Source: a virus
Direction: 5' to 3' (one strand)
IMG/VR virus record: IMGVR_UViG_3300020027_000025
Span: 1 to 34,876 of that record
Length of the DNA stretch: 34,876 bases
The position numbers and the translations under genes are program-made. Positions 564 through 32,820 of this stretch are shown piece by piece. How positions within the stretch are numbered: the stretch's first letter is position 1; every line of letters starts with the position of its first letter. A model generated the notes under the pieces. That model worked only from the letters and a program-made list of their open reading frames with translations, was not told where the DNA came from and did not search any database.

Positions 564-1187
564 TCACGTGCAGCTGTAGGTCGGTGCCGCTGGATCGAAC
601 GGGTCTGTCCGGGAGCAGGTGTGTTCTCCGAGGAGGTCCGTGTACGTCCAGCTTACGGGCGGTTCACCCGCCGGGCCGACATCGCCGGGGGGACCAGCCG
701 GGCCAGCGTTGCCCACGGGCCCGGCTGGTCCTGTCGCTCCCGGCTCTCCGGGGTTGCCGGCGGTTCCTGTGTCCCCGGAGGGCCCCGGTCCTCCAGCGGG
801 GCCAGGAGCGCCGGTGTCGCCCACGAGGCCCGGCGCACCCGCCGCGCCGGGGTCGCCACGGACACCGGGCGGACCGGCGGGTCCGGGCTCACCTTGCGGC
901 CCCGCCGGTCCTGTGTCGCCGACAGGGCCGGGGGCGGCCGGCACCTGGTCGGCTTGTCGGCACGCGCCGGTGCGCTCCAGCTCGATGGCTGCGTCGCCCC
1001 CCGACTGGCACGCGGCCTTCACTCGGGTCGCGAGATCCTCGGTGGTGTCCACTGCGGTGTCGCGCTCGTTGATGATGGTGAGGCCGATCAGCACGAGCGC
1101 GGCCAGGAGCAGCACGGCGACCACGCCGACCACCCGGTCCATCGCCGTGCGGTGCCGGTGATGCTGGGCCATTTCCTCCGCCGTCAT
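564..1187 (-). CDS. Membrane-anchored collagen-like protein next to endolysin
   Basis: The 207-residue protein has a short basic, His-rich N-terminus, one strong transmembrane helix at about residues 19-40, a helical linker with two Cys, then about 30 uninterrupted Gly-X-Y triplets. It ends in a short tail containing two more Cys. This predicts a type II membrane protein (N-terminus inside) with a trimeric collagen-like stalk outside the membrane. Collagen repeats are common in phage tail fibres, but a membrane anchor is not expected in a virion fibre. The gene overlaps the upstream coiled-coil membrane gene by ATGA and sits just before the endolysin, so a role in lysis or at the envelope (holin partner, spanin-like linker, or exclusion protein) is a reasonable inference. 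I do not recognise a specific family. Confidence 0.8.
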
Positions 1188-2816: not shown

Positions 2817-5509
2817 TAGAATGCCCTCGCTGCCCATATCAGGATCTCACAGTTACCCGACGGGTATGTCACGCTGAATCCGGTAGCACTCGCCGCACTA
2901 ATGCAATGGTACTTTCCCGTAGCCCCACCGGAAGTAGGCAGGATGTCGCAGATCACGTTCATGTTGCCGACCATGGTCGCACCGTAGGTGACTGCCTGAC
3001 TCGTACCACTTCCGGCCACGTGATCGGTGTAGAGCGCGCTTAATCCGCCTGCTGTATGGGTTTTCTGGAAGTGGCCTTTAAGCGCGATAGCTTCCGTACT
3101 ATCAAACCTAATCCACGCATCGGCACCGGAATCCTTGTAGCCGTAGAAAGCGTTCCCGGACTGGAACGTCACGCGGCCGCCATGGGCCACCCGTGCGGCA
3201 GTCTCCTGCTGTAGCAAGAAGTTGGTTCCGAACACCACCTGGGTGATGTGGTCGGACGATCCGTCGTCGTACATGTCGATGCGGGCAACGCCCCCAGGGT
3301 CGGGGTTGAGCACGATACGCTGGGGGTCGGTGTCCAGTCCACTTTGGAACTTGCCCACGATCGTAATGTCTCCGCCCACCTCCGCGTTCATCGTCTCGGC
3401 GTTGCTCGCGTTGTACAACCGAAGTCCGTCCACATCGGACTCCATGCGGGCACCGGACACGCCGGTCTTGATACTCCCCGCCAGTAGCCAATCAGCCGTG
3501 ATGGTTCCGGCGGTCACCTTGGACACGGTCAGGCTGGAGATGTGCGCGTCGTCCACCAGCTCCGCCGTCGCCGGCACCGCGAAACTCGACAAGCTCTTGT
3601 TCCCCGCCATGTCCACAGCGATGACCTTGAACCAACCGGGGGTCAGGTTGTCCAGCGGGAACGTGGCGACCAGCGGGATGTGTCCGCTGATCATCCCCCA
3701 ATTGACCATGACCTTGCCGAGCAGCGTGGTGTCGGAACAGGTGAACGTCGGCTCCGTTCCGATGTGCAGCTCCATGTGGTGCATGTCGCGGTCCAGGTTG
3801 TACGTCCCCCCGGAAGCGACGCCCAACGTGTGGATCATTTGCACGGCGAGGGTGGACGCGGCGATCGTGGGCGCGCCCGGCGTGGCCGGCGGCTGGTCGT
3901 CGCTCGTGGTGGTCCACTCTGTGACCGCCGACCAGGCCCCGTAGTTCGTCGGCGTGGCGAGGTCGGCCGCCCGGATCTGTGCCTCGTACGGGTGTGCGGG
4001 GATCAGCTCCTGGAGGCGGAACGTCTCACTGTCGAACGGGGCCACCGCGAACTGCCAGTCCGTCGCGGGGTACAGCACCGGCTCATCCCACGTCGAACCG
4101 GTCGCCTCCCACTGATCCCAGGTCAGGCCCCGCGCTTCGGCCTGGTCCCAGGTGAAGGGGTAGAGCGGGGTAGTGGCGGAGCGGTAACGGATCTCGTAGT
4201 GTGACCCGTCCACGATCGGCGTGCCGCCGACGTTGTCAGGCCGGTCCCAGGTCAGCAGCACTTCCCCGCGGGCCTCGCCGGTGACCGCGCTCTGGTACAC
4301 GCCGAGCCGGAAGGGCTCCGTCCAGGTGACCACGTCCGGCACCGACGCGTCGGGCACCGGCAACCGGCCGATCGGTTCCGACCCGGTGCCGGTGAGCGAG
4401 CGGCTGTAACCCCCGACCTTGACGGTGGTCTGCCCGCCCTCCCACACCACGTAGTCGGTGAGGTCGTACCAGGCACCGAGCTTGTCGCGGAACGCCACGG
4501 TGAAGCCGGGCGCGACCGGCCAGGTGGTCTCGATCAGCCGGAGCTTCACCGGGTTGGTGACCGCGCCACGGAACACGACCTCGTTGGTGGGGTCCTCCAA
4601 CCCGATGTCCGGATCGAACACCCACAGGTAGTCACCGACCAGCACCGATCCGTTGATGTCGTACTCCGACGTGGACAGCGCGAGTGCGTCGCGCGTGCCG
4701 GAGAACCGGTTCAGTTGCAGCTGGGCCCGGACGTCGGCGTTGGTGGCGTCGGTGGTGGACTCGCTCACCATGCGGGTCAGCACCACGGGGTTGCCGTGCA
4801 GGTCCTTGTACGGGTTCAGGCCCGGAGCGATGTCGGCGGAGCCGGTGGCCACGGTGGTGTCCGTGGACGCGGCGAGCAGCAACGCGCGAGTGGTGAAGTC
4901 CTCCACGTCCTGGTCGGTGTTCGACGTGCCGAGCAGCGCGCGCAACCGCATGTCGACGCCGGCACCGCGCTTGATCACCATGCACTTGGGGTCGGTGACG
5001 AACAGGTCCTCCGGCGCGCCGGCGTCCAGGGTGGCGTCCCCGTTGACCCGGTACTCGCCACCCATGGTGGTGCACACGTAGTCGATGGCCTTGCGCGGCG
5101 TCGTGTACTGGAACGTGTTGGTGAAGGTGCCGACGATGGGGGACAGGAGCCCCTCCAGCACCGCGGCGGGGAGGAGGTCCCGCACCACCTGGGTGAAGTC
5201 CTCAGCGGTGAAAGTGATCGGGGTTTCGATCACCGCGCCCTTGTCTTCCTCGTCACCCAACCAGAACGCCATGCCGGCACCGGTCAGCGCCGGGGCGTCG
5301 TCGTGGTCGCCGACACCGCGCAGCACGCCGGTGTAGCGGCTCGACCGGAGCAGGCCGTCCCCGACCTTGCGCGGGTCGAGCCGGCCGGTGTGGATGGTGA
5401 CGTGGCCGAAGTAGTTGGCGGCCAGCATGTCCCGGATCTTGCGCGGCGTTTCCTTACGCAGAGTCAGGTTCCAGTTACCCAGTGCCCCGATGGCTTCGGT
5501 GATCGGCAT
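2816..5509 (-). CDS. Large minor tail protein with fibronectin-like domains (tail hub/central fibre)
   Basis: This 897-residue protein is the largest in the late region. The N-terminal half (about 1-380) resembles tail-associated hub proteins. Fibronectin type III-like beta segments follow at about 385-650. Residues near 655-690 (HISSLTVSKVTAGTI) match the linker seen in central tail fibre and gpJ-like proteins before the distal tip. The C-terminal 200 residues are Gly, Thr and Ser rich and likely form the receptor-contacting tip. A local triplication of TWDQ or TWDE about every 10-12 residues occurs near 450-475, inside an FN3-like region. The ATG at 5509 follows a strong GAGGAGGT. The gene starts 2 bases after the preceding distal tail gene. 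The last 300 bases look less GC-rich, as if the tip had been exchanged. Confidence 0.85.
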   Translation of the reverse strand: MPITEAIGALGNWNLTLRKETPRKIRDMLAANYFGHVTIHTGRLDPRKVGDGLLRSSRYTGVLRGVGDHDDAPALTGAGMAFWLGDEEDKGAVIETPITFTAEDFTQVVRDLLPAAVLEGLLSPIVGTFTNTFQYTTPRKAIDYVCTTMGGEYRVNGDATLDAGAPEDLFVTDPKCMVIKRGAGVDMRLRALLGTSNTDQDVEDFTTRALLLAASTDTTVATGSADIAPGLNPYKDLHGNPVVLTRMVSESTTDATNADVRAQLQLNRFSGTRDALALSTSEYDINGSVLVGDYLWVFDPDIGLEDPTNEVVFRGAVTNPVKLRLIETTWPVAPGFTVAFRDKLGAWYDLTDYVVWEGGQTTVKVGGYSRSLTGTGSEPIGRLPVPDASVPDVVTWTEPFRLGVYQSAVTGEARGEVLLTWDRPDNVGGTPIVDGSHYEIRYRSATTPLYPFTWDQAEARGLTWDQWEATGSTWDEPVLYPATDWQFAVAPFDSETFRLQELIPAHPYEAQIRAADLATPTNYGAWSAVTEWTTTSDDQPPATPGAPTIAASTLAVQMIHTLGVASGGTYNLDRDMHHMELHIGTEPTFTCSDTTLLGKVMVNWGMISGHIPLVATFPLDNLTPGWFKVIAVDMAGNKSLSSFAVPATAELVDDAHISSLTVSKVTAGTITADWLLAGSIKTGVSGARMESDVDGLRLYNASNAETMNAEVGGDITIVGKFQSGLDTDPQRIVLNPDPGGVARIDMYDDGSSDHITQVVFGTNFLLQQETAARVAHGGRVTFQSGNAFYGYKDSGADAWIRFDSTEAIALKGHFQKTHTAGGLSALYTDHVAGSGTSQAVTYGATMVGNMNVICDILPTSGGATGKYHCISAASATGFSVTYPSGNCEILIWAARAF

Positions 5510-15738: not shown

Positions 15739-17301
15739 TCACGCGACCCAGTCCCGAGACTCCGAACGCTGAGTCCGGTGGCGCGTCTTCAAAACGAAGT
15801 CCGCGCCGGTGCCCACAGCGTCCAGCACGTCGTCGTGCGCGCCGCGGGGGAACGATAGGGCCTCCTCCTCGAACGGAATCTGTCGGCCGCGCAGCGCCGC
15901 GCGCTTGCGCTGGAAATGGTTCAGGAGCCGGGCGGCCCGGACGGGCTTGGGCTCGCTCTGGGTGATCAGCTCGACCGGCACCGGCATGTCGTGGTACACG
16001 GACAGCCACGTCTCCCCGCCCTGGTTGCACTCGATCAGGATGCGCCGGATCTCCGGGAACCGCTCCAGGATGGACAGCGCCAGCGCGCGGCAGGCGGCAG
16101 GCGGCAGGATCACGGCACGGGTGTGCTCGACCACGGCCATGTGGGCGGAGGGGCTGTAGGCGATCACGGCGAACGCGGTGCGGTCGGAGGTGAGCTTGGA
16201 CGTGGTGGCCGGGTCGATCGACAGCACCGCCTTGGTGATGCCGGTGACTGCCGAGCTGCGCTCACGTGCTTCGGCCAGGTCGTCGCGCGACCAGTAGTCG
16301 CCGGTGCCGGCGGGGAGGTTGCGGAAGTTCTTCTGGTACTGCCGGGTGTGTCGGATGGACGCCAGGAATTCCATGCTCCAGCGTGCCGGCCAGCACGACC
16401 GCTCGGTGCCGTCCGGCTCGACCACGATGGGCGGGTGGTAGTTGACCGTCCAGCTCTCCTCGGCGATCCACGACGCCGGCTCCTCGCCGGGCTCCAGGAC
16501 GGTCTTGACGAGTTGGTGCACGATCGAGCCGACCATGGTGGTGGTGCCGCACAGCACGACGCGGGCGAACGCGTTCAGCGGCATGATCGAGTCGGTGAGG
16601 GCGATGAGGCGCTGCCCGGCCTGGTAGGCGGAGTAGGTCTCTTCACCAGGTTCGACGTCATCGAGAAGGATCTTGTCCGGTCGGCGCTTGCCGACCTTCA
16701 TGCCCAGGTTGCCCTCATCGATTCCCTTGGCACCAAAGACAAAGCCGTTGGCCTGAATGGTCAGCTTCTTGTTGTCGCTAATCCGGCGCTTCTCGGTGAG
16801 CCGCTCCTGGGGCGCGCACAGTCCGGGGAAGTCCTTACGTAGCAACATGTTCCGGTCCAGTTCACCCTTGAACGTCTGGAGGTGCATCTGCGCTTGAGGT
16901 CCAGAGTCGGCGAACGCGGCGATGAACTTGGCGTGGCCGTGCGCCCCTGCCCACATTGGGATGATCAGGAACCACCACGTGGTCTTGCCGGTGTTGCGTG
17001 GCGCGACCTCGGCAGTCCGGTGCGCGTTCGGCGCGGTGACGGGTCGGAACCACTCCCGTGCCTCGCGTGCCCAGGCCAGGTGCATGTCGCCGATGGTGAT
17101 CCGGTTGTCGGTCTCGTCGGACCGGAGGTGGTCCTTGAGGTAGACCACGGCGAACAGCAACGGGTCCGTGAGGGTGAGCGCGCGCCGGCCGGCGGGATCG
17201 GTGAGCAGGCGCGCGTCGAACTGCGCGAACCAGGCATCGTAGTCGAACGTCGCGGCGGTGGCGGCAGGGTCGTAGGGGTCGGTCAACTTGGGGGTTGTCA
17301 T
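15739..17301 (-). CDS. terL: Terminase large subunit
   Basis: This 520-residue ATPase-nuclease packages DNA into the head. Visible motifs are Walker A APRNTGKTT at residues 100-108, Walker B KILLDDVE at 210-217 with a following Glu, the coupling CGTTT near 250, and a nuclease domain with SIDPATT near 364, IECNQGG near 440 and HDDVLDA near 500 as the acidic metal-binding residues. The ATG at 17301 has no ribosome site, and its codon is overlapped by the -35 box of a rightward promoter (17295-17300). Gene order to portal is normal. The small subunit lies 2 kb away rather than adjacent. Confidence 0.95.
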   Translation of the reverse strand: MTTPKLTDPYDPAATAATFDYDAWFAQFDARLLTDPAGRRALTLTDPLLFAVVYLKDHLRSDETDNRITIGDMHLAWAREAREWFRPVTAPNAHRTAEVAPRNTGKTTWWFLIIPMWAGAHGHAKFIAAFADSGPQAQMHLQTFKGELDRNMLLRKDFPGLCAPQERLTEKRRISDNKKLTIQANGFVFGAKGIDEGNLGMKVGKRRPDKILLDDVEPGEETYSAYQAGQRLIALTDSIMPLNAFARVVLCGTTTMVGSIVHQLVKTVLEPGEEPASWIAEESWTVNYHPPIVVEPDGTERSCWPARWSMEFLASIRHTRQYQKNFRNLPAGTGDYWSRDDLAEARERSSAVTGITKAVLSIDPATTSKLTSDRTAFAVIAYSPSAHMAVVEHTRAVILPPAACRALALSILERFPEIRRILIECNQGGETWLSVYHDMPVPVELITQSEPKPVRAARLLNHFQRKRAALRGRQIPFEEEALSFPRGAHDDVLDAVGTGADFVLKTRHRTQRSESRDWVA

Positions 17302-17335
17302 GGTGTGTCCAGGTATGTCATACTAGTCCCATGAC
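17293..17335 (+). repeat. Promoter cassette repeat, copy 1
   Basis: A 43-base segment ending in the first bases of the 17331 gene matches 17548-17590 at 37 of 43 positions by direct comparison. Both copies carry -35, spacer, -10 and start codon, so this is a duplicated promoter-plus-start unit. Confidence 0.8.
17295..17324 (+). promoter_or_regulatory. Promoter for small gene 17331, leaderless type
   Basis: TTGTCA (17295-17300) and CATACT (17319-17324) are separated by 18 bases. The ATG at 17331 is 7 bases after the -10 end, so the transcript probably begins at the start codon. Words TGTCA, TGTCC and TGTCA begin at 17296, 17306 and 17316, exactly 10 bp apart on one helix face. Confidence 0.72.
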
Positions 17336-17495
17336 CGAAACACAGTGGGACGCCAGCCGATACGACGCATGCCGGGCAGTGCTCGTGGATCTCGACACCG
17401 CGCTGATTCAGCGGATGATCGATGCCGGAGTCGCCGGCACACCCGAGGGAGTCAAGGCCATCGCCGACGAGATGGCGATCCGAAAGAGCCGCTGA
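17331..17495 (+). CDS. Small moron-like protein between terL and MuF genes
   Basis: The 54-residue product (MTETQWDASRYDACRAVLVD at the start, ending DEMAIRKSR) looks fully helical, acidic in the middle and basic at the end. I do not recognise it. It is transcribed opposite to the late operon around it, has its own promoter with the ATG at the predicted transcript start, and ends before a strong terminator at 17510-17535. This is the layout of a moron, a separately expressed gene often active in lysogeny or early infection. The first codons are the same in outline as those of the neighbouring 17586 gene, but the proteins are unrelated. Confidence 0.75.
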   Translation: MTETQWDASRYDACRAVLVDLDTALIQRMIDAGVAGTPEGVKAIADEMAIRKSR

Positions 17496-17509
17496 TCCTC
17501 CAGCACTCC

Positions 17510-17535
17510 AGCCCCGGCCAACTGGCCGGGGCTTT
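17510..17535 (+). terminator. Terminator after small gene 17331
   Basis: The arms AGCCCCGGCC (17510-17519) and GGCCGGGGCT (17524-17533) form a perfect 10-bp stem with a 4-base loop, followed by TTG. This is a good intrinsic terminator for the rightward gene. Confidence 0.8.
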
Positions 17536-17547
17536 GTGCTGCCAGGG

Positions 17548-17590
17548 GGTTGTCCTGGTATGTCCCGGTATGGCACACTAGTCTCATGAC
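17548..17590 (+). repeat. Promoter cassette repeat, copy 2
   Basis: This is the second copy of the 43-base promoter unit seen at 17293-17335, matching at 37 of 43 positions. The -10 region and the spacer are the most conserved in layout, and the start codon is at the same place. Confidence 0.8.
17550..17579 (+). promoter_or_regulatory. Promoter for small gene 17586, leaderless type
   Basis: TTGTCC (17550-17555) and CACACT (17574-17579) are 18 bases apart, and the ATG at 17586 begins 7 bases after the -10 end. TGTCC words begin at 17551 and 17561 with TGGCA at 17571, again 10 bp apart. Confidence 0.7.
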
Positions 17591-17798
17591 CTACCAGGAC
17601 GACCCGTACCGCAAGGGCGATGCCGCGAAACTGCTCAAGAAACAGATGCGAGAGCTTGCCGCAAAGAACGCCAAGGCCAAGCGGGAGCGTGCGCGCAAGG
17701 TGGCGGAGCAGGCTGGAGAGACAGAGTTCTACTGCCTGGAGTGCAAGAACGTGGGGAAGCGCGGCAAGGGTTGCGGCACCTGCGGTGCCAAGTCCTGA
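17586..17798 (+). CDS. Small zinc-ribbon-like moron protein
   Basis: The 70-residue protein has a strongly basic helical first half (residues about 10-45, rich in Lys, Arg, Ala) and a C-terminal CLEC...CGTC pattern with four Cys at about 51, 54, 64 and 67. Together they suggest a zinc ribbon with nucleic-acid-binding helices. The specific role is unknown. Like its neighbour it has its own promoter and runs against the surrounding late genes, and a perfect stem-loop (17815-17843) follows its stop. Confidence 0.78.
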   Translation: MTYQDDPYRKGDAAKLLKKQMRELAAKNAKAKRERARKVAEQAGETEFYCLECKNVGKRGKGCGTCGAKS

Positions 17799-25596: not shown

Positions 25597-25633
25597 GTGG
25601 TAGCCTTTCGGTGTCGGAAGTGGTGTGCGGCGA

Positions 25634-25663
25634 GACCCCGGAGTGAGGGAAGCCTCCGGGGTC
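25634..25663. terminator. Stem-loop between HTH gene and polymerase gene
   Basis: The arms GACCCCGGAG (25634-25643) and CTCCGGGGTC (25654-25663) form a perfect 10-bp stem with a 10-base loop. It follows the HTH gene stop by 4 bases on the minus strand. The T-rich side lies toward the plus strand, so for leftward transcripts it is more likely an attenuator than a full terminator. Confidence 0.6.
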
Positions 25664-25666
25664 TTG

Positions 25667-25864
25667 TTATGCCTGGACCTTGCCGGCCAGGAACTTGGTC
25701 AGCTGGGCACGGGAGACCCGGAGCCGGTTGACCTGGCCGGTGTAGCGGGTCAGGTGCCCATCCGAGACCCACCGGCCGATCGTGCGCGGGGTGACCCCGG
25801 CCAGCTTGGCGGCGTCCGCCTTGGACAGGGAGTCCTCCGGCGCGAGCTGTTTGCGCGGTGCCAT
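25667..25864 (-). CDS. Excisionase/MerR-like HTH DNA-binding protein
   Basis: The 65-residue protein is a small winged HTH of the excisionase or MerR-like type: SKADAAKLAGVTPRTIGRWV at about 14-33 is the helix-turn-helix, and DGHLTRYTGQVNRLRVSRAQ at about 35-54 is the wing and second strand. The ATG at 25864 has GGAGG 8 bases upstream. A GTG at 25873 in the same frame lies too close to that site. It is the first gene of the leftward replication arm, so it may be an early regulator or act at an origin. Excision is only possible if an integrase exists outside the window. Confidence 0.82.
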   Translation of the reverse strand: MAPRKQLAPEDSLSKADAAKLAGVTPRTIGRWVSDGHLTRYTGQVNRLRVSRAQLTKFLAGKVQA

Positions 25865-25914
25865 CGTGCTCACCTCCTCTCATGTCATGATGCGTCGCTG
25901 TCTGTCTACCCCGG

Positions 25915-25943
25915 ACCATACCCGCTCACCTGGATCATGTCCA
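25915..25943 (-). promoter_or_regulatory. Leftward promoter of replication arm
   Basis: On the minus strand TGGACA (25943-25938) and TATGGT (25920-25915) are 17 bases apart. The -35 box is itself a copy of the TGTCC word read in reverse. The predicted start near 25908 gives a leader of about 45 bases before the HTH gene. Confidence 0.7.
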
Positions 25944-25946
25944 GCA

Positions 25947-25975
25947 TTGACACACTTTGTCCCAGTGTGTAGTGT
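25947..25975 (+). promoter_or_regulatory. Rightward promoter of helicase/nuclease arm
   Basis: TTGACA (25947-25952) is perfect and TAGTGT (25970-25975) follows after 17 bases. A TGTCC word lies in the spacer at 25958. The leader to the ATG at 26022 is about 40 bases and contains repeated GAGAA acting as ribosome site. Confidence 0.78.
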
Positions 25976-26021
25976 GGCTCTCACAACCAGGTCAACCAGG
26001 CAGAGAAGAGAAGAGAAGATC

Positions 26022-26243
26022 ATGGACGGGACACCTCGACCCCCGGAGCCGGAGCCCGGCACGGTGGTCGGCTTCACCAAGCAGTTCCGACCGGACGGGA
26101 CGGGATACGCCTACGTCGCGATCCGGGTCAAGGGACGCGGCTGGTTCGTGACGGATGGTGTGCAGCGCGAGTGGGACGAGGTCGTGGAATTCGCGGACGG
26201 TGCCCAGCTCTGGTTCACCCGGACGTGGGAGCGGCTCGCATGA
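26022..26243 (+). CDS. Hypothetical small protein, first gene of rightward arm
   Basis: The 73-residue product (start MDGTPRPPEPEPGTVVGFTK) has a Pro-rich first 12 residues and then a beta-barrel-like pattern of short strands (GTGYAYVAIRVKGRGWFVTD, VVEFADGAQLWFTRTWERLA). Similar short proteins are common at the start of early operons in actinophages, but I cannot name a function. The ATG at 26022 has an AGAAGAGAAGA ribosome site. It overlaps the next gene by ATGA, so it is the first member of a coupled operon. Confidence 0.78.
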   Translation: MDGTPRPPEPEPGTVVGFTKQFRPDGTGYAYVAIRVKGRGWFVTDGVQREWDEVVEFADGAQLWFTRTWERLA

Positions 26244-26431
26244 TCACGGGTATCTGGCTGAACCCGGAGCGCACCAAGATCGCTGTCCAGGTGGACGACG
26301 ACGCGCTGATCGAGTACTGGCCGGGCGACTCGGACGGGTACGAGCTGGACACGGTGGCCGACGACTGGATCACCTGCGTTCCCGACCCCCACGACGTCCA
26401 CCAAAGCTGCATTCCCCTGGAGCAAGCGTGA
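26240..26431 (+). CDS. Hypothetical small protein
   Basis: This 63-residue frame starts with the ATG at 26240, overlapping the previous stop, and ends in GTGA overlapping the helicase GTG. It is mildly acidic and beta-rich in the first half (MITGIWLNPERTKIAVQVDD) with a His and Cys containing end (DPHDVHQSCIP). The tight overlaps on both sides support it as real. No family is recognised. Confidence 0.72.
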   Translation: MITGIWLNPERTKIAVQVDDDALIEYWPGDSDGYELDTVADDWITCVPDPHDVHQSCIPLEQA

Positions 26432-28146
26432 GCACCCAACTCCCCCTCCGCCCCTACCAGGTGGACGCGCTGGCCGCCATGCACGCCGCATGGGACCGCG
26501 GCGTGCAGCGGCCGGCGGTGGTCGCACCGACCGGCGCGGGCAAGACGGTCATGTTCGCCCACCTGATCCACGACCACCTCCAGCGCAACGCACGCGCCAC
26601 GCTGGACCCGGCACGGCGTTTCGCGTCGCGGGCCCTCGTGCTCGTGCACCGGGACGAGTTGGCCGACCAGGCTATCGACAAGATCAACCAGGTGATGAAT
26701 GACCCGGAGATTCGGGTGGGCAAGGTCAAGGCGGGTGACGACGACGTGGAGATGGACGTCGTCGTGGCGTCGGTCCAGACACTCTCCCGGCCCGCCCGGC
26801 TCGATAACCTGTTGAGCACCGTGGCGGACTTCGGAGACTTCGGCCTGATCGTGGTGGATGAGTGCCACCACGCCGTGGCCCCGACGTGGTGGACGCTGCT
26901 CGACCAGCTCGGGTGCTTCACCAAGCAGCGCGACGACCACAGCGACATGGTCAAGGTCGTCGGCTTCTCTGCCACCCTGGCCCGGTCCGACGAGGTCGGT
27001 CTCGGCTCCGTGTGGCAGGAGGTCGCCTACGCGATCAGCCTGACCCGCCTCATCCGGCGCGGCCACCTCGCCGACGTGCGCGGCGTACAGGTCAAGGTCA
27101 AAGACCTGGACTTGGCCGGCGTGCGCAAGAGCGGCGGGGACTACCAGGTCGGCGCGCTCGGCACGGCGATCGAGGAGAGCGACACCCCGGCCGTCATCAC
27201 CGCGGCCTATCTGGAGCACGCGAAGGACCGGCAGGGCGTGGTGTTCGCGCCGACCGTGATGACGGCGGAGCTGATCGCCGAAGCGATGAACGCCGGCGGC
27301 ATCCCCTCGGCCATGATCACCGGCACCACGCCGCGCGACGACCGGCGACGGATCTACAGCGAGTTTCAGTCCGGCCTGACCCAGGTCCTCGTGAACTGCA
27401 TGGTGCTCACCGAGGGGTTCGACGCGCCGTGGGCGTCGTGCGCGGTCATCGCCCGACCGACCCAGAGCGCGCCGCTCTACACCCAGATGGTGGGGCGGGT
27501 GCTCCGGCCGTGGCCGGGCAAGACCGACGCGCTCGTGCTCGACGTGGTCGGCGTGACCGGCAAGCTCAAGTTGGCCACGTTGATCGACCTGGAGCCGGGA
27601 GTGGTGCACACGCTGCGCTCGGACCAGTCCCTGGCCGAAGCGGTAGAAGAGGTGGAGTTGGAGGAAGCCGCTCGGCACCACCGACCTACCCCGGCATCGC
27701 TCACCGCGGCGGAGGTCAGCCTGTTCGCGGAGTCGCGCTCGGTGTGGCTCCAGACCGCGGCCGGCGTGTGGTTCGTGCCGACGCGCGAGGGCGAGTTCTT
27801 TATCTGGCCTGGCACGGAGCCGGGCACCTGGGACGCCTGCCACGCTCCCGTGGTGGCGCACCGGCGGCAACCGTGGCAGCGCCTGCACACCGGGTGCACG
27901 CTGGAGCTGGCGATGTCCTGGGCCCAGGTGGAAGCGGAAGAGGCGGACTCGTCGGTGGCTTCCCGCGACGCGTCGTGGCGCACGCGCAAGGCCCCGGCGA
28001 GCGAGGCCCAGAAGGGCATGCTGTCGATGCTCGGCATGCGGTCGGCCGCCAAGGAGAACCTAACCAAGGTGGAAGCGTCAGACCTGATCTCCAAACTCCA
28101 GGCCAGCAAGGTCTTTGACAAGCACTACCGAAAGGTGACGGCGTGA
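26428..28146 (+). CDS. SF2 DEAD/DEAH-type helicase
   Basis: The 572-residue protein is a superfamily 2 helicase. Visible motifs are the Q-like region LRPYQVDALAAM at 7-18, motif I APTGAGKTV at 33-41, motif II DECHHA at 144-149, motif III SATLA near 176, TEGFDAP near 331, and motif VI QMVGRVLRP near 353. The C-terminal 170 residues after about 400 are extra and less conserved, perhaps for binding DNA or a partner. It may unwind DNA for replication or recombination together with the nuclease two genes downstream. The GTG at 26428 overlaps the previous stop by GTGA. Confidence 0.9.
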   Translation: MSTQLPLRPYQVDALAAMHAAWDRGVQRPAVVAPTGAGKTVMFAHLIHDHLQRNARATLDPARRFASRALVLVHRDELADQAIDKINQVMNDPEIRVGKVKAGDDDVEMDVVVASVQTLSRPARLDNLLSTVADFGDFGLIVVDECHHAVAPTWWTLLDQLGCFTKQRDDHSDMVKVVGFSATLARSDEVGLGSVWQEVAYAISLTRLIRRGHLADVRGVQVKVKDLDLAGVRKSGGDYQVGALGTAIEESDTPAVITAAYLEHAKDRQGVVFAPTVMTAELIAEAMNAGGIPSAMITGTTPRDDRRRIYSEFQSGLTQVLVNCMVLTEGFDAPWASCAVIARPTQSAPLYTQMVGRVLRPWPGKTDALVLDVVGVTGKLKLATLIDLEPGVVHTLRSDQSLAEAVEEVELEEAARHHRPTPASLTAAEVSLFAESRSVWLQTAAGVWFVPTREGEFFIWPGTEPGTWDACHAPVVAHRRQPWQRLHTGCTLELAMSWAQVEAEEADSSVASRDASWRTRKAPASEAQKGMLSMLGMRSAAKENLTKVEASDLISKLQASKVFDKHYRKVTA

Positions 28147-29850: not shown

Positions 29851-29878
29851 TTGACATCTCGCTGGTGACAGCTAGGCT
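29851..29878 (+). promoter_or_regulatory. Promoter for ssDNA-binding-like gene
   Basis: A perfect TTGACA (29851-29856) and TAGGCT (29873-29878) are 16 bases apart. Downstream, TGTCCGG (29892-29898) and CCGGACA (29918-29924) form an inverted repeat, so the same TGTCC word may act here as an operator in the leader. The leader to the ATG is about 60 bases. Confidence 0.7.
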
Positions 29879-30432: not shown

Positions 30433-30473
30433 GCGGCGTCCGGTGCCTCATGGCCTGGACGCCGCTGTCCTTT
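30433..30473 (+). terminator. Terminator after ssDNA-binding-like gene
   Basis: The arms GCGGCGTCC (30433-30441) and GGACGCCGC (30457-30465) form a 9-bp stem with a 15-base loop, followed by TGTCCTTT. This could reduce transcription into the next genes rather than stop it. Confidence 0.6.
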
Positions 30474-30498
30474 GTAGACAACATGAGATGAGATGACC

Positions 30499-30639
30499 AT
30501 GGCTAAGAAGTTCAAGTGTCCCGTGATGATCGTGGACAGCAAGGGCAGACTCAAGAAGTGCGGCCGTAAGTTCCTCTCCCTGGAGTCGATGCTCCAGCAC
30601 GCGGACCGCGCCCACGGGGGTCGTGGGCGCGAGCTGTGA
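30499..30639 (+). CDS. Tiny C2H2-like zinc-finger protein
   Basis: The 46-residue product has CPVMIVDSKGRLKKCGRKF near 7-25, then LESMLQHADRAH near 28-39. Two Cys and two His with this spacing fit a C2H2-type finger. The basic N-terminus (MAKKFK) could help nucleic-acid contact. The ATG at 30499 is chosen; an ATG at 30493 would add two residues. A GAGATGAGATGA leader, also seen before the 29947 gene, lies upstream. Its stop overlaps the GTG of the next gene as GTGA, which supports translation. Confidence 0.72.
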   Translation: MAKKFKCPVMIVDSKGRLKKCGRKFLSLESMLQHADRAHGGRGREL

Positions 30640-30767
30640 CCCGGCAACCACGGCCGGAACGTCAGGCACGCAAGGACAAGAAGCCCGGCAACGACGCGTT
30701 CTGTACCGAGTGCAAGACGTGGTACGACTCGACCAACCAGGCCCAAGTCAATAAGCATTCTCACTGA
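30636..30767 (+). CDS. Second tiny zinc-finger-like protein
   Basis: The 43-residue frame starts with the GTG at 30636, overlapping the previous stop. It has a strongly basic first 18 residues (RQPRPERQARKDKKPGND), a C-T-E-C pair near 24-27 and an H-S-H end at 41-43, again a possible C2-H2 site. The two genes together look like a coupled pair of minimal fingers. It ends 12 bases before a membrane protein gene. No family is recognised. Confidence 0.66.
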   Translation: MTRQPRPERQARKDKKPGNDAFCTECKTWYDSTNQAQVNKHSH

Positions 30768-30779
30768 AAGGATCGACGA

Positions 30780-31322
30780 ATGAAACAGATCATAGGGCGC
30801 GAGCCGGCGGTGTTCTTCGGACTCATCGCCGGACTCGTGCTCGCCGTCATCCAGCTCGTGAACGTCACGGACCCGCTCGCGGGTGCCCTGAACGCGGTCG
30901 TGCTGGCCGCCGCCGGTCTCGCCACGGCGGCCGTGGTGGACGTGGACAAGGTGCTCCCCGCCCTCGTCGGTTTGATCACCGCGACGTTCGCGGTGTTCCT
31001 GGCCTACGGCTCCCCGGTGCCGGAGAGCACGCAGACGGGCATCCTGGCCTTGGTCACGGCCGCCGCCGCGTTCTTCGTGCGGCAGAACGTCGTCGCGCCG
31101 GTGACTATCACTGGCAGTCCGGCACGTGAACTGGCGCTCAAGGAAGCACGCCGCGCGGGCTACCTGTTCGGTATCGAAGAGGAAGCCGACAGCGCGTACG
31201 ACCGGGGACTCCGCGACGGGGCCAACGATCCCAGCTCCGTGCTGAACTCGGTGCCGGCCGACGATGACGTGCCCGTCGCGGAGCACTCGGACGGCCCCGA
31301 CTTCCCCAGTCGTCTCGCATGA
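30780..31322 (+). CDS. Multi-helix membrane protein, holin-like N-terminus
   Basis: The 180-residue protein has four likely membrane helices at about 10-28, 36-54, 58-76 and 86-103. A soluble, acidic C-terminal half follows (about 110-180, including ARELALKEARRAGYLFGIEE). The beginning (MKQIIGREPAVFFGLIAG) resembles the openings of some actinophage holins with R-E-P-A followed by a helix, but the four-helix layout and tail are larger, and the gene lies far from the endolysin. It may be a second lysis protein or an envelope protein. The ATG at 30780 has AAAGGA upstream. Confidence 0.75.
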   Translation: MKQIIGREPAVFFGLIAGLVLAVIQLVNVTDPLAGALNAVVLAAAGLATAAVVDVDKVLPALVGLITATFAVFLAYGSPVPESTQTGILALVTAAAAFFVRQNVVAPVTITGSPARELALKEARRAGYLFGIEEEADSAYDRGLRDGANDPSSVLNSVPADDDVPVAEHSDGPDFPSRLA

Positions 31323-32558: not shown

Positions 32559-32577
32559 CCGGGTACGTGTCCCGGTA

Positions 32578-32606
32578 TTGACATGGTTTGTCCAGGGGCG
32601 TAGCGT
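32578..32606 (+). promoter_or_regulatory. Promoter for small gene 32614, leaderless type
   Basis: A perfect TTGACA (32578-32583), a 17-base spacer and TAGCGT (32601-32606) precede the ATG at 32614 by 8 bases, so the transcript should begin at or near the start codon. TGTCC words begin at 32568 and 32589, with TGACA at 32579, spaced 11 and 10 bp. Confidence 0.78.
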
Positions 32607-32613
32607 CGAGCCC

Positions 32614-32820
32614 ATGACCACACGAACCCACTGCGAGCAGCTCACCGATCACCTGGCCCACCCGGTCACGTTCGGCCGCAACCAGCTGCAGCTCTACCGG
32701 TGCCCCGGTCGGTTCACCCCGTCCGCGCACCGGCCGCCGGGTCCGAAGCTCAAGCACGCCATGGATTCGGACCCGTTCGCCGGGGTCGACTCCGACGCTG
32801 CTCCGTCCATCTGGGACTGA
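32614..32820 (+). CDS. Small protein with own leaderless promoter
   Basis: The 68-residue product (MTTRTHCEQLTDHLAHPVTF at the start) is unrecognised. It has one Cys near 7 and another near 30, a His-rich first third, a Pro and Arg containing middle, and an acidic end. No ribosome site precedes the ATG, fitting a leaderless message. It resembles the other two isolated small genes (17331, 17586) in promoter layout and in starting ATGAC. A strong stem-loop lies 85 bases after the stop. Confidence 0.68.
   Translation: MTTRTHCEQLTDHLAHPVTFGRNQLQLYRCPGRFTPSAHRPPGPKLKHAMDSDPFAGVDSDAAPSIWD

Follow-up and report, generated by a model that had tools for sequence, protein, structure and literature searches.

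The locus raises the question of whether a single control region, placed where two divergent gene arms part, can switch both arms together; the most likely answer is that phased words laid over the start signals of the two arms, and of small accessory genes, allow joint switching by one tiny protein. The window, which is the whole stretch of DNA analysed here, is a 34.9-kb virus record with a G+C content of 67%, and its host is probably actinobacteria-like. The leftward arm encodes the tape measure, major head, portal and terminase proteins, RusA, a primase-helicase and DNA polymerase A; the rightward arm encodes a helicase, an exonuclease, an HNH protein, a holin and a glycosyltransferase. 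The hub (25865-26021) is the exact parting point of the two arms. It lies between the first gene of the leftward arm (25667..25864, minus strand), which encodes a 65-aa winged-helix protein of the HTH_17 family (PF12728), and the first gene of the rightward operon (26022..26243, plus strand), which encodes a phrog_1342-like protein of 73 aa that is kept in relatives, and which is followed on the same strand by the DNA helicase gene (26428..28146; phrog_16, 2e-91). No lysogeny module was seen in the window.

Several features lie outside the hub. A hairpin (GACCCCGGAG..CTCCGGGGTC, 25597-25666) separates the HTH gene from the DNA polymerase A gene, with similar hairpins in L005 and L006 (see below), and may leave the HTH mRNA monocistronic. 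The structural arm ends in a collagen-like Gly-X-Y repeat protein (564-1187, minus strand), and about 350 bp ahead of the holin-like gene (30450-30780) lack a convincing plus-strand gene.

Within the hub, four words recur at 10-bp intervals on the plus strand: TGTCC (25938..25942), TGACA (25948..25952), TGTCC (25958..25962) and TGTAG (25968..25972). Two promoters stand back to back across them. The leftward promoter (TGGACA-17-TATGGT, 25915..25943, minus strand; -10 at 25920-25915) has a -35 box at 25943-25938 that coincides with the first word, and the -35 box of the rightward promoter (TTGACA-17-TAGTGT, 25947..25975, plus strand; -35 at 25947-25952, -10 at 25970-25975) contains the second. 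The third word lies in the rightward spacer, in no core promoter element, and the fourth, a weak and degenerate copy, overlaps the rightward -10. A first-pass annotation had described these words, their placement in both -35 boxes, the two 17-bp spacers and an HTH-encoding neighbour, and on re-examination of the sequence every position was exact. TGTCC and TGACA are not identical, but variants of a single degenerate word, TG(T/A)C. The strict arrangement TGTC-N6-TGAC-N6-TGTC occurs once in the window, compared to a mean of 0.00 in 100 Markov-simulated genomes, and a looser triplet allowing N6 or N7 spacings occurs three times, compared to 0.07 expected. A promoter scan returned the leftward promoter as the sole sigma-70-like site in 2 kb (mean of 0.1 in shuffles); it missed the rightward promoter because the -10 there, TAGTGT, shares just 3 of its 6 bases with TATAAT, which is poor by E. 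coli standards. A search with the hub DNA found no match among isolated phages.

Searches with the helicase and the HTH protein recovered two more independent phages in which this layout recurs, G001 (contig L005, with L003 as a second contig of that virus at 100%) and G002 (contig L006), whose HTH proteins share 51% and 62% identity with that of the window. When the hub cores of the three phages are aligned, all 12 word columns are invariant, compared to 5 of the 19 other columns; in particular, the TGTC of words 1 and 3 and the TTGAC around word 2 do not vary. Both promoters are retained. The leftward promoter keeps the form xxGACA-17-TAnnGT in all three phages. The rightward spacer is 1 bp longer in both relatives (18 bp) than in the window (17 bp), and the rightward -10 position of the relatives reads TAGACT, so that TAG..T is conserved. 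The window's exact word grammar is found in three independent phages only, and a search of 2.9 million viral contigs for the full core pattern returned three contigs, two of them the same virus, that all belong to this family. A probe built from the alignment of the 73-aa protein likewise returned three contigs of the same family, and the single 73-aa sequence as a probe found no relatives. Other elements of the region were also considered. A palindromic operator, ACACACT-N7-AGTGTGT (a 7-bp inverted repeat at 25950-25970), was discarded, as it is present in the window only and lost in the relatives. An ATCACCAG/CTCACCTGG element in the leftward promoter spacer (25915-25935) is conserved in the three phages, and L006 carries a further phased word run that overlaps the start of its HTH gene (3370-3394; G002 4337-4361, minus strand).

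The 65-aa protein scores 31.9 bits against the Pfam HTH_17 model (PF12728, cut-off 27), and none of the three genomes has a second HTH_17 match. It consists of the HTH only, lacking the C-terminal dimerisation or effector domain of classical MerR proteins. Its best PDB relatives are structures of BldC (6AMA/6AMK), with a weak profile match (E 0.011), and it falls below both the BldC family model (NF033787; 17.9, cut-off 77) and the excisionase model (TIGR01764; 22.1, cut-off 28.8). Neither tyrosine nor serine integrases (PF00589/PF00239) have a match in the window, G001 or G002, records that may be incomplete, and an excisionase role for the protein was rejected on this ground. As the protein passes the HTH_17 model and fails both narrower models, and no integrase was found in the three genomes, it is described here as working like BldC or Xis, not as a filed member of either family.

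The comparison with BldC suggests how such a protein may read the words. BldC molecules sit head-to-tail on direct repeats, where they protect four 5-bp tracts spaced one helical turn apart (PMC5859096). Its Streptomyces operators (smeA-sffA and whiI; PMC5859096) resemble the hub in pairing a tiny winged HTH of the HTH_17 type with direct repeats, in having four tracts at one-turn intervals and in extending across the promoter (-60 to -10); the hub and its relatives share the corresponding feature, direct repeats with a 10-bp lag. Moreover, the BldC arginine that reads a C-G pair aligns with an arginine that is invariant in the HTH proteins studied here. BldC differs in that it regulates development of the host and has 9-bp repeats that are AT-rich (AATTxxxxC), unlike the TG(T/A)C word and the two back-to-back promoters of the phage hub, whose protein fails the BldC family model. 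The excisionases of phages and ICEs (lambda Xis, Pukovnik Xis and RdfS) belong to the same domain family and form winged-HTH filaments, in head-to-tail rows on DNA, and some of them regulate transcription (PMC11963761). They differ from the hub system in that the sites here are promoters, not attachment sites, in genomes where no integrase was found.

Conservation and phase strongly support the four words as an operator, and the neighbouring HTH_17 protein is a well-supported candidate for its binder. Having no domain beyond the winged HTH, it probably lines up head-to-tail on the DNA in the manner of BldC and lambda Xis, with one protomer per word along one face of the helix. In the hub, such a row would reach from the leftward -35 at word 1, through the rightward -35 at word 2 and the rightward spacer at word 3, to the edge of the rightward -10 at word 4, and would block RNA polymerase from loading on both promoters. 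As the row would lie on both -35 boxes, the simplest consequence would be repression, and we infer this sign of regulation. In terms of timing, host polymerase would fire both promoters upon entry, HTH protein would accumulate, and the early and cassette promoters would then close, turning down the HTH gene, the helicase/recombination operon and those leaderless cassettes that carry words 2-4. We consider this whole reading, in which the words are the operator of the adjacent HTH_17 protein and head-to-tail binding represses the HTH gene itself along with the helicase operon and the cassettes, to be probable. The first-pass annotation had proposed that one regulator sets both arms at once; a shared site set over both promoters, beside the HTH gene, stands on strong comparative evidence, and the joint movement of the arms, with the neighbouring protein as binder, is what we infer from it.

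The words extend beyond the hub. There are 3 triplet sites in the window, 5 in G001 and 6 in G002, and all 14 have the same strand polarity, lying on the strand of rightward transcription; a reversed-pattern control gave none. The non-hub sites are mostly promoters of short genes, in which TTG(T/A)C, TGTC and TGTCATACT follow one another in 10-bp steps and 6-7 nt separate the TGTCATACT element from the ATG; ten such promoters combine into TTGTCATGnTnTGTCCAnGTnTGTCATACTnGnCnCATG. Word 4 of the hub corresponds to TGTCATACT at the matching position and so counts as a genuine step of the register, overlapping the -10. In the window, a putative cassette promoter/operator (TTGTCATGGT GTGTCCAGGT ATGTCATACT, 17295..17330, plus strand), of which a 30-mer is identical in G002, is followed after 6 nt by the ATG of a 54-aa leaderless gene (17331..17495, plus strand) that runs antisense to the late arm. 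A second putative promoter/operator (17550..17585, plus strand; words TGTC, TGTC and TGGC) precedes a 70-aa leaderless gene with a Cys-rich, zinc-ribbon-like tail (17586..17798, plus strand). Further, a promoter with words phased by 11 and 10 bp (TGTC, TTGACA-17-TAGCGT; 32568..32613, plus strand) ends 7 nt before a 68-aa gene (32614..32820, plus strand), whose G002 homologue stands behind TTGTC..TGTC..TGTCATACT. The late-arm cassettes, two in the window and four in a row in G001, each join a promoter to a small, unrelated gene, and a hairpin often separates adjacent cassettes. They are read in the direction opposite to the late genes, a moron-like layout that recalls lambda morons. The likeness of the cassette promoters could also come from recent duplication; a DNA search with one found no match among isolated phages. 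The cassettes lack the word 10 bp upstream of the -35 that serves the hub as its leftward -35, which fits a copy added there for autoregulation.

The HTH_17 protein could instead bind the phased words and activate transcription, bending or untwisting the promoter in a MerR-like manner. MerR activators use a dyad within a 19-20 bp spacer, not direct repeats; the hub has direct repeats and 17-18 bp spacers, and its inverted repeat is not conserved. In addition, the words overlap the -35 and -10 boxes themselves, and hub promoters with TTGACA and a good 17-bp spacing are expected to fire unaided. Cassette promoters with spacers of at least 18 bp and a weak -10 (CATACT), however, might need help, and some HTH_17 or winged-HTH proteins do activate, for example RdfS (PMC11963761). 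Overall, we regard activation as unlikely, though worth keeping in mind beside the repression that we favour.

A larger and more distant set of contigs, gathered from HTH_17 genes upstream of related helicases, bears on who reads the words. Across 20 distant HTH_17 regions, TGWC words exactly 10 bp apart occur 14 times, compared to 0.34 expected, and other phages use variants (TGGCAG three times; TGTCACC/TGACACC/TGTCACC; GACATTCGC). Because the words differ between phages, self-similarity was measured with no word specified in advance, over a non-redundant set of 41 HTH_17 control regions from phage contigs (less than 70% alike, their sequences far diverged). Its only peaks are at lag 10 (z = 10) and lag 20 (z = 6), and all other lags fall well short of them; these z-values are not strict probabilities because the 41 regions are related by a common layout. 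The signal persists when the window family is removed. TGTC stands 10 bp upstream of TTGAC in 10 of 27 hub sites, compared to 4 of 580 other TTGAC sites from the same loci. The middle word copy is usually the -35 TTGACA, and some hubs lack a 10-bp repeat (e.g. L102, L039 and L010). These comparisons strongly support the view that 10-bp phased repeats mark the divergent position of HTH_17 genes across a broad set of phage contigs.

Alternatively, some other factor, a host regulator or another phage protein, would read the words, and the HTH gene would be only a neighbour. Words also occur far from the HTH gene. A host factor, however, would tend to impose one word, whereas the phased repeats lie at HTH_17-proximal hubs in many phages while the word itself varies, and the special words of the three distant phages tested (L117, L083 and L103) are confined to their own hubs. 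A scan of the three genomes for a separate HTH_3 repressor matched the same HTH gene only, and no other HTH_17 or HTH_3 regulator was found in them. We judge this explanation to be quite improbable, and retain the HTH_17 protein as the likely reader. The recognition helix may covary with the word (RTxDR with CAG, RTxAR with CACC), in too few cases to weigh.

Words 2 and 4 coincide with a -35 and a -10, and the words might then only define a strong promoter class, a preference of polymerase or sigma factor with no operator. Against this, word 3 lies in a spacer and the upstream TGTC of distant hubs lies in no core element. Moreover, a promoter of the same genome (TTGACA-16-TAGGCT, 29851..29878, plus strand) lacks the 10-bp phased words, as do control promoters of the relatives: the lag-10 score is 13.3 for 12 hub promoters and 9.1, without excess, for 12 control promoters outside hubs. 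A promoter class is thus a very remote prospect. A PWM match at 29857 (minus strand) was not taken as an operator site, being an ordinary promoter without phase. That the pattern arose by chance, from degenerate words picked by eye and after the fact, is practically negligible, as conservation in independent relatives, together with shuffles and controls, already refutes it.

Among other phage switches, the divergent CI/Cro type also places one control region between two arms with a regulator gene alongside; it differs in having palindromic operators and two repressors, where the hub has direct repeats and one recognisable regulator. The stoperators of L5-type cluster A mycobacteriophages are single 13-bp sites with a conserved core, at which the immunity repressor halts transcription already under way; no such repressor was recognised here. 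Stoperators resemble the present sites in being many, asymmetric, of one orientation and shared with the operator of an early promoter, and differ in that the present sites are multi-word arrays on promoters. The SAS/ESAS elements of cluster K mycobacteriophages (PMC3203893) also repeat in one orientation just before the ATG of many small genes; SAS is a 13-bp sequence resembling a ribosome site, while the element here is a promoter with a leaderless start. The open papers searched held no description of such phage hubs. Tentatively, and with more doubt than conviction, the hubs may represent a new class of phage control, in which a minimal winged-HTH protein acts on an operator fused by phasing to back-to-back -35 boxes, the word drifts as the 10-bp phase is kept, and in some phages the sites have spread with portable leaderless cassettes that put acquired genes under the switch.

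These results offer a testable rule for locating an early master switch, namely 10-bp phased words beside an HTH_17 gene, which applies to many uncultured, probably actinobacterial phages where few regulators are known. They also suggest that, in phages without an integrase, the common small 'excise/MerR-like' HTH genes encode transcriptional switches and not excisionases, and that a ready-made promoter-operator is a way for accessory genes to plug into the phage programme.

The distant hubs vary in their architecture. Of 40 hubs, 16 carry a TANNNT box whose end is 6-7 nt upstream of the ATG of the HTH gene, with TTGAC 24-36 bp away; the regulator would then be leaderless, its -35 would overlap the rightward -35, and one -35 box could be used in both directions. 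The window family differs in having a ribosome site and two distinct -35 boxes, 3 bp from each other. Apparently leaderless HTH_17 genes with a possible shared -35, in the first 40 bp or so upstream of the HTH gene, include those of L012, L014, L004, L020 and L117, among others. Four Woodruffvirus isolates (TP1604, YDN12, phiSAJS1 and Mischief19) carry a related HTH gene that likewise diverges from its neighbour, in this case an exonuclease gene, but a search of this region gave no clear repeat of 10 bp. The hubs of L102, L100, L110, L097 and L124, without 10-bp words, carry another repeat, TGTACnnnnGAGGGGTnnAC, with a period of about 20 bp. Finally, tandem cassettes with near-identical promoter-operators and unrelated leaderless genes of 54-105 aa, in some cases with a hairpin between them, adjoin the terminase gene and are inserted against the late-gene direction (window 17295-17798; L168 939-2005; L170).
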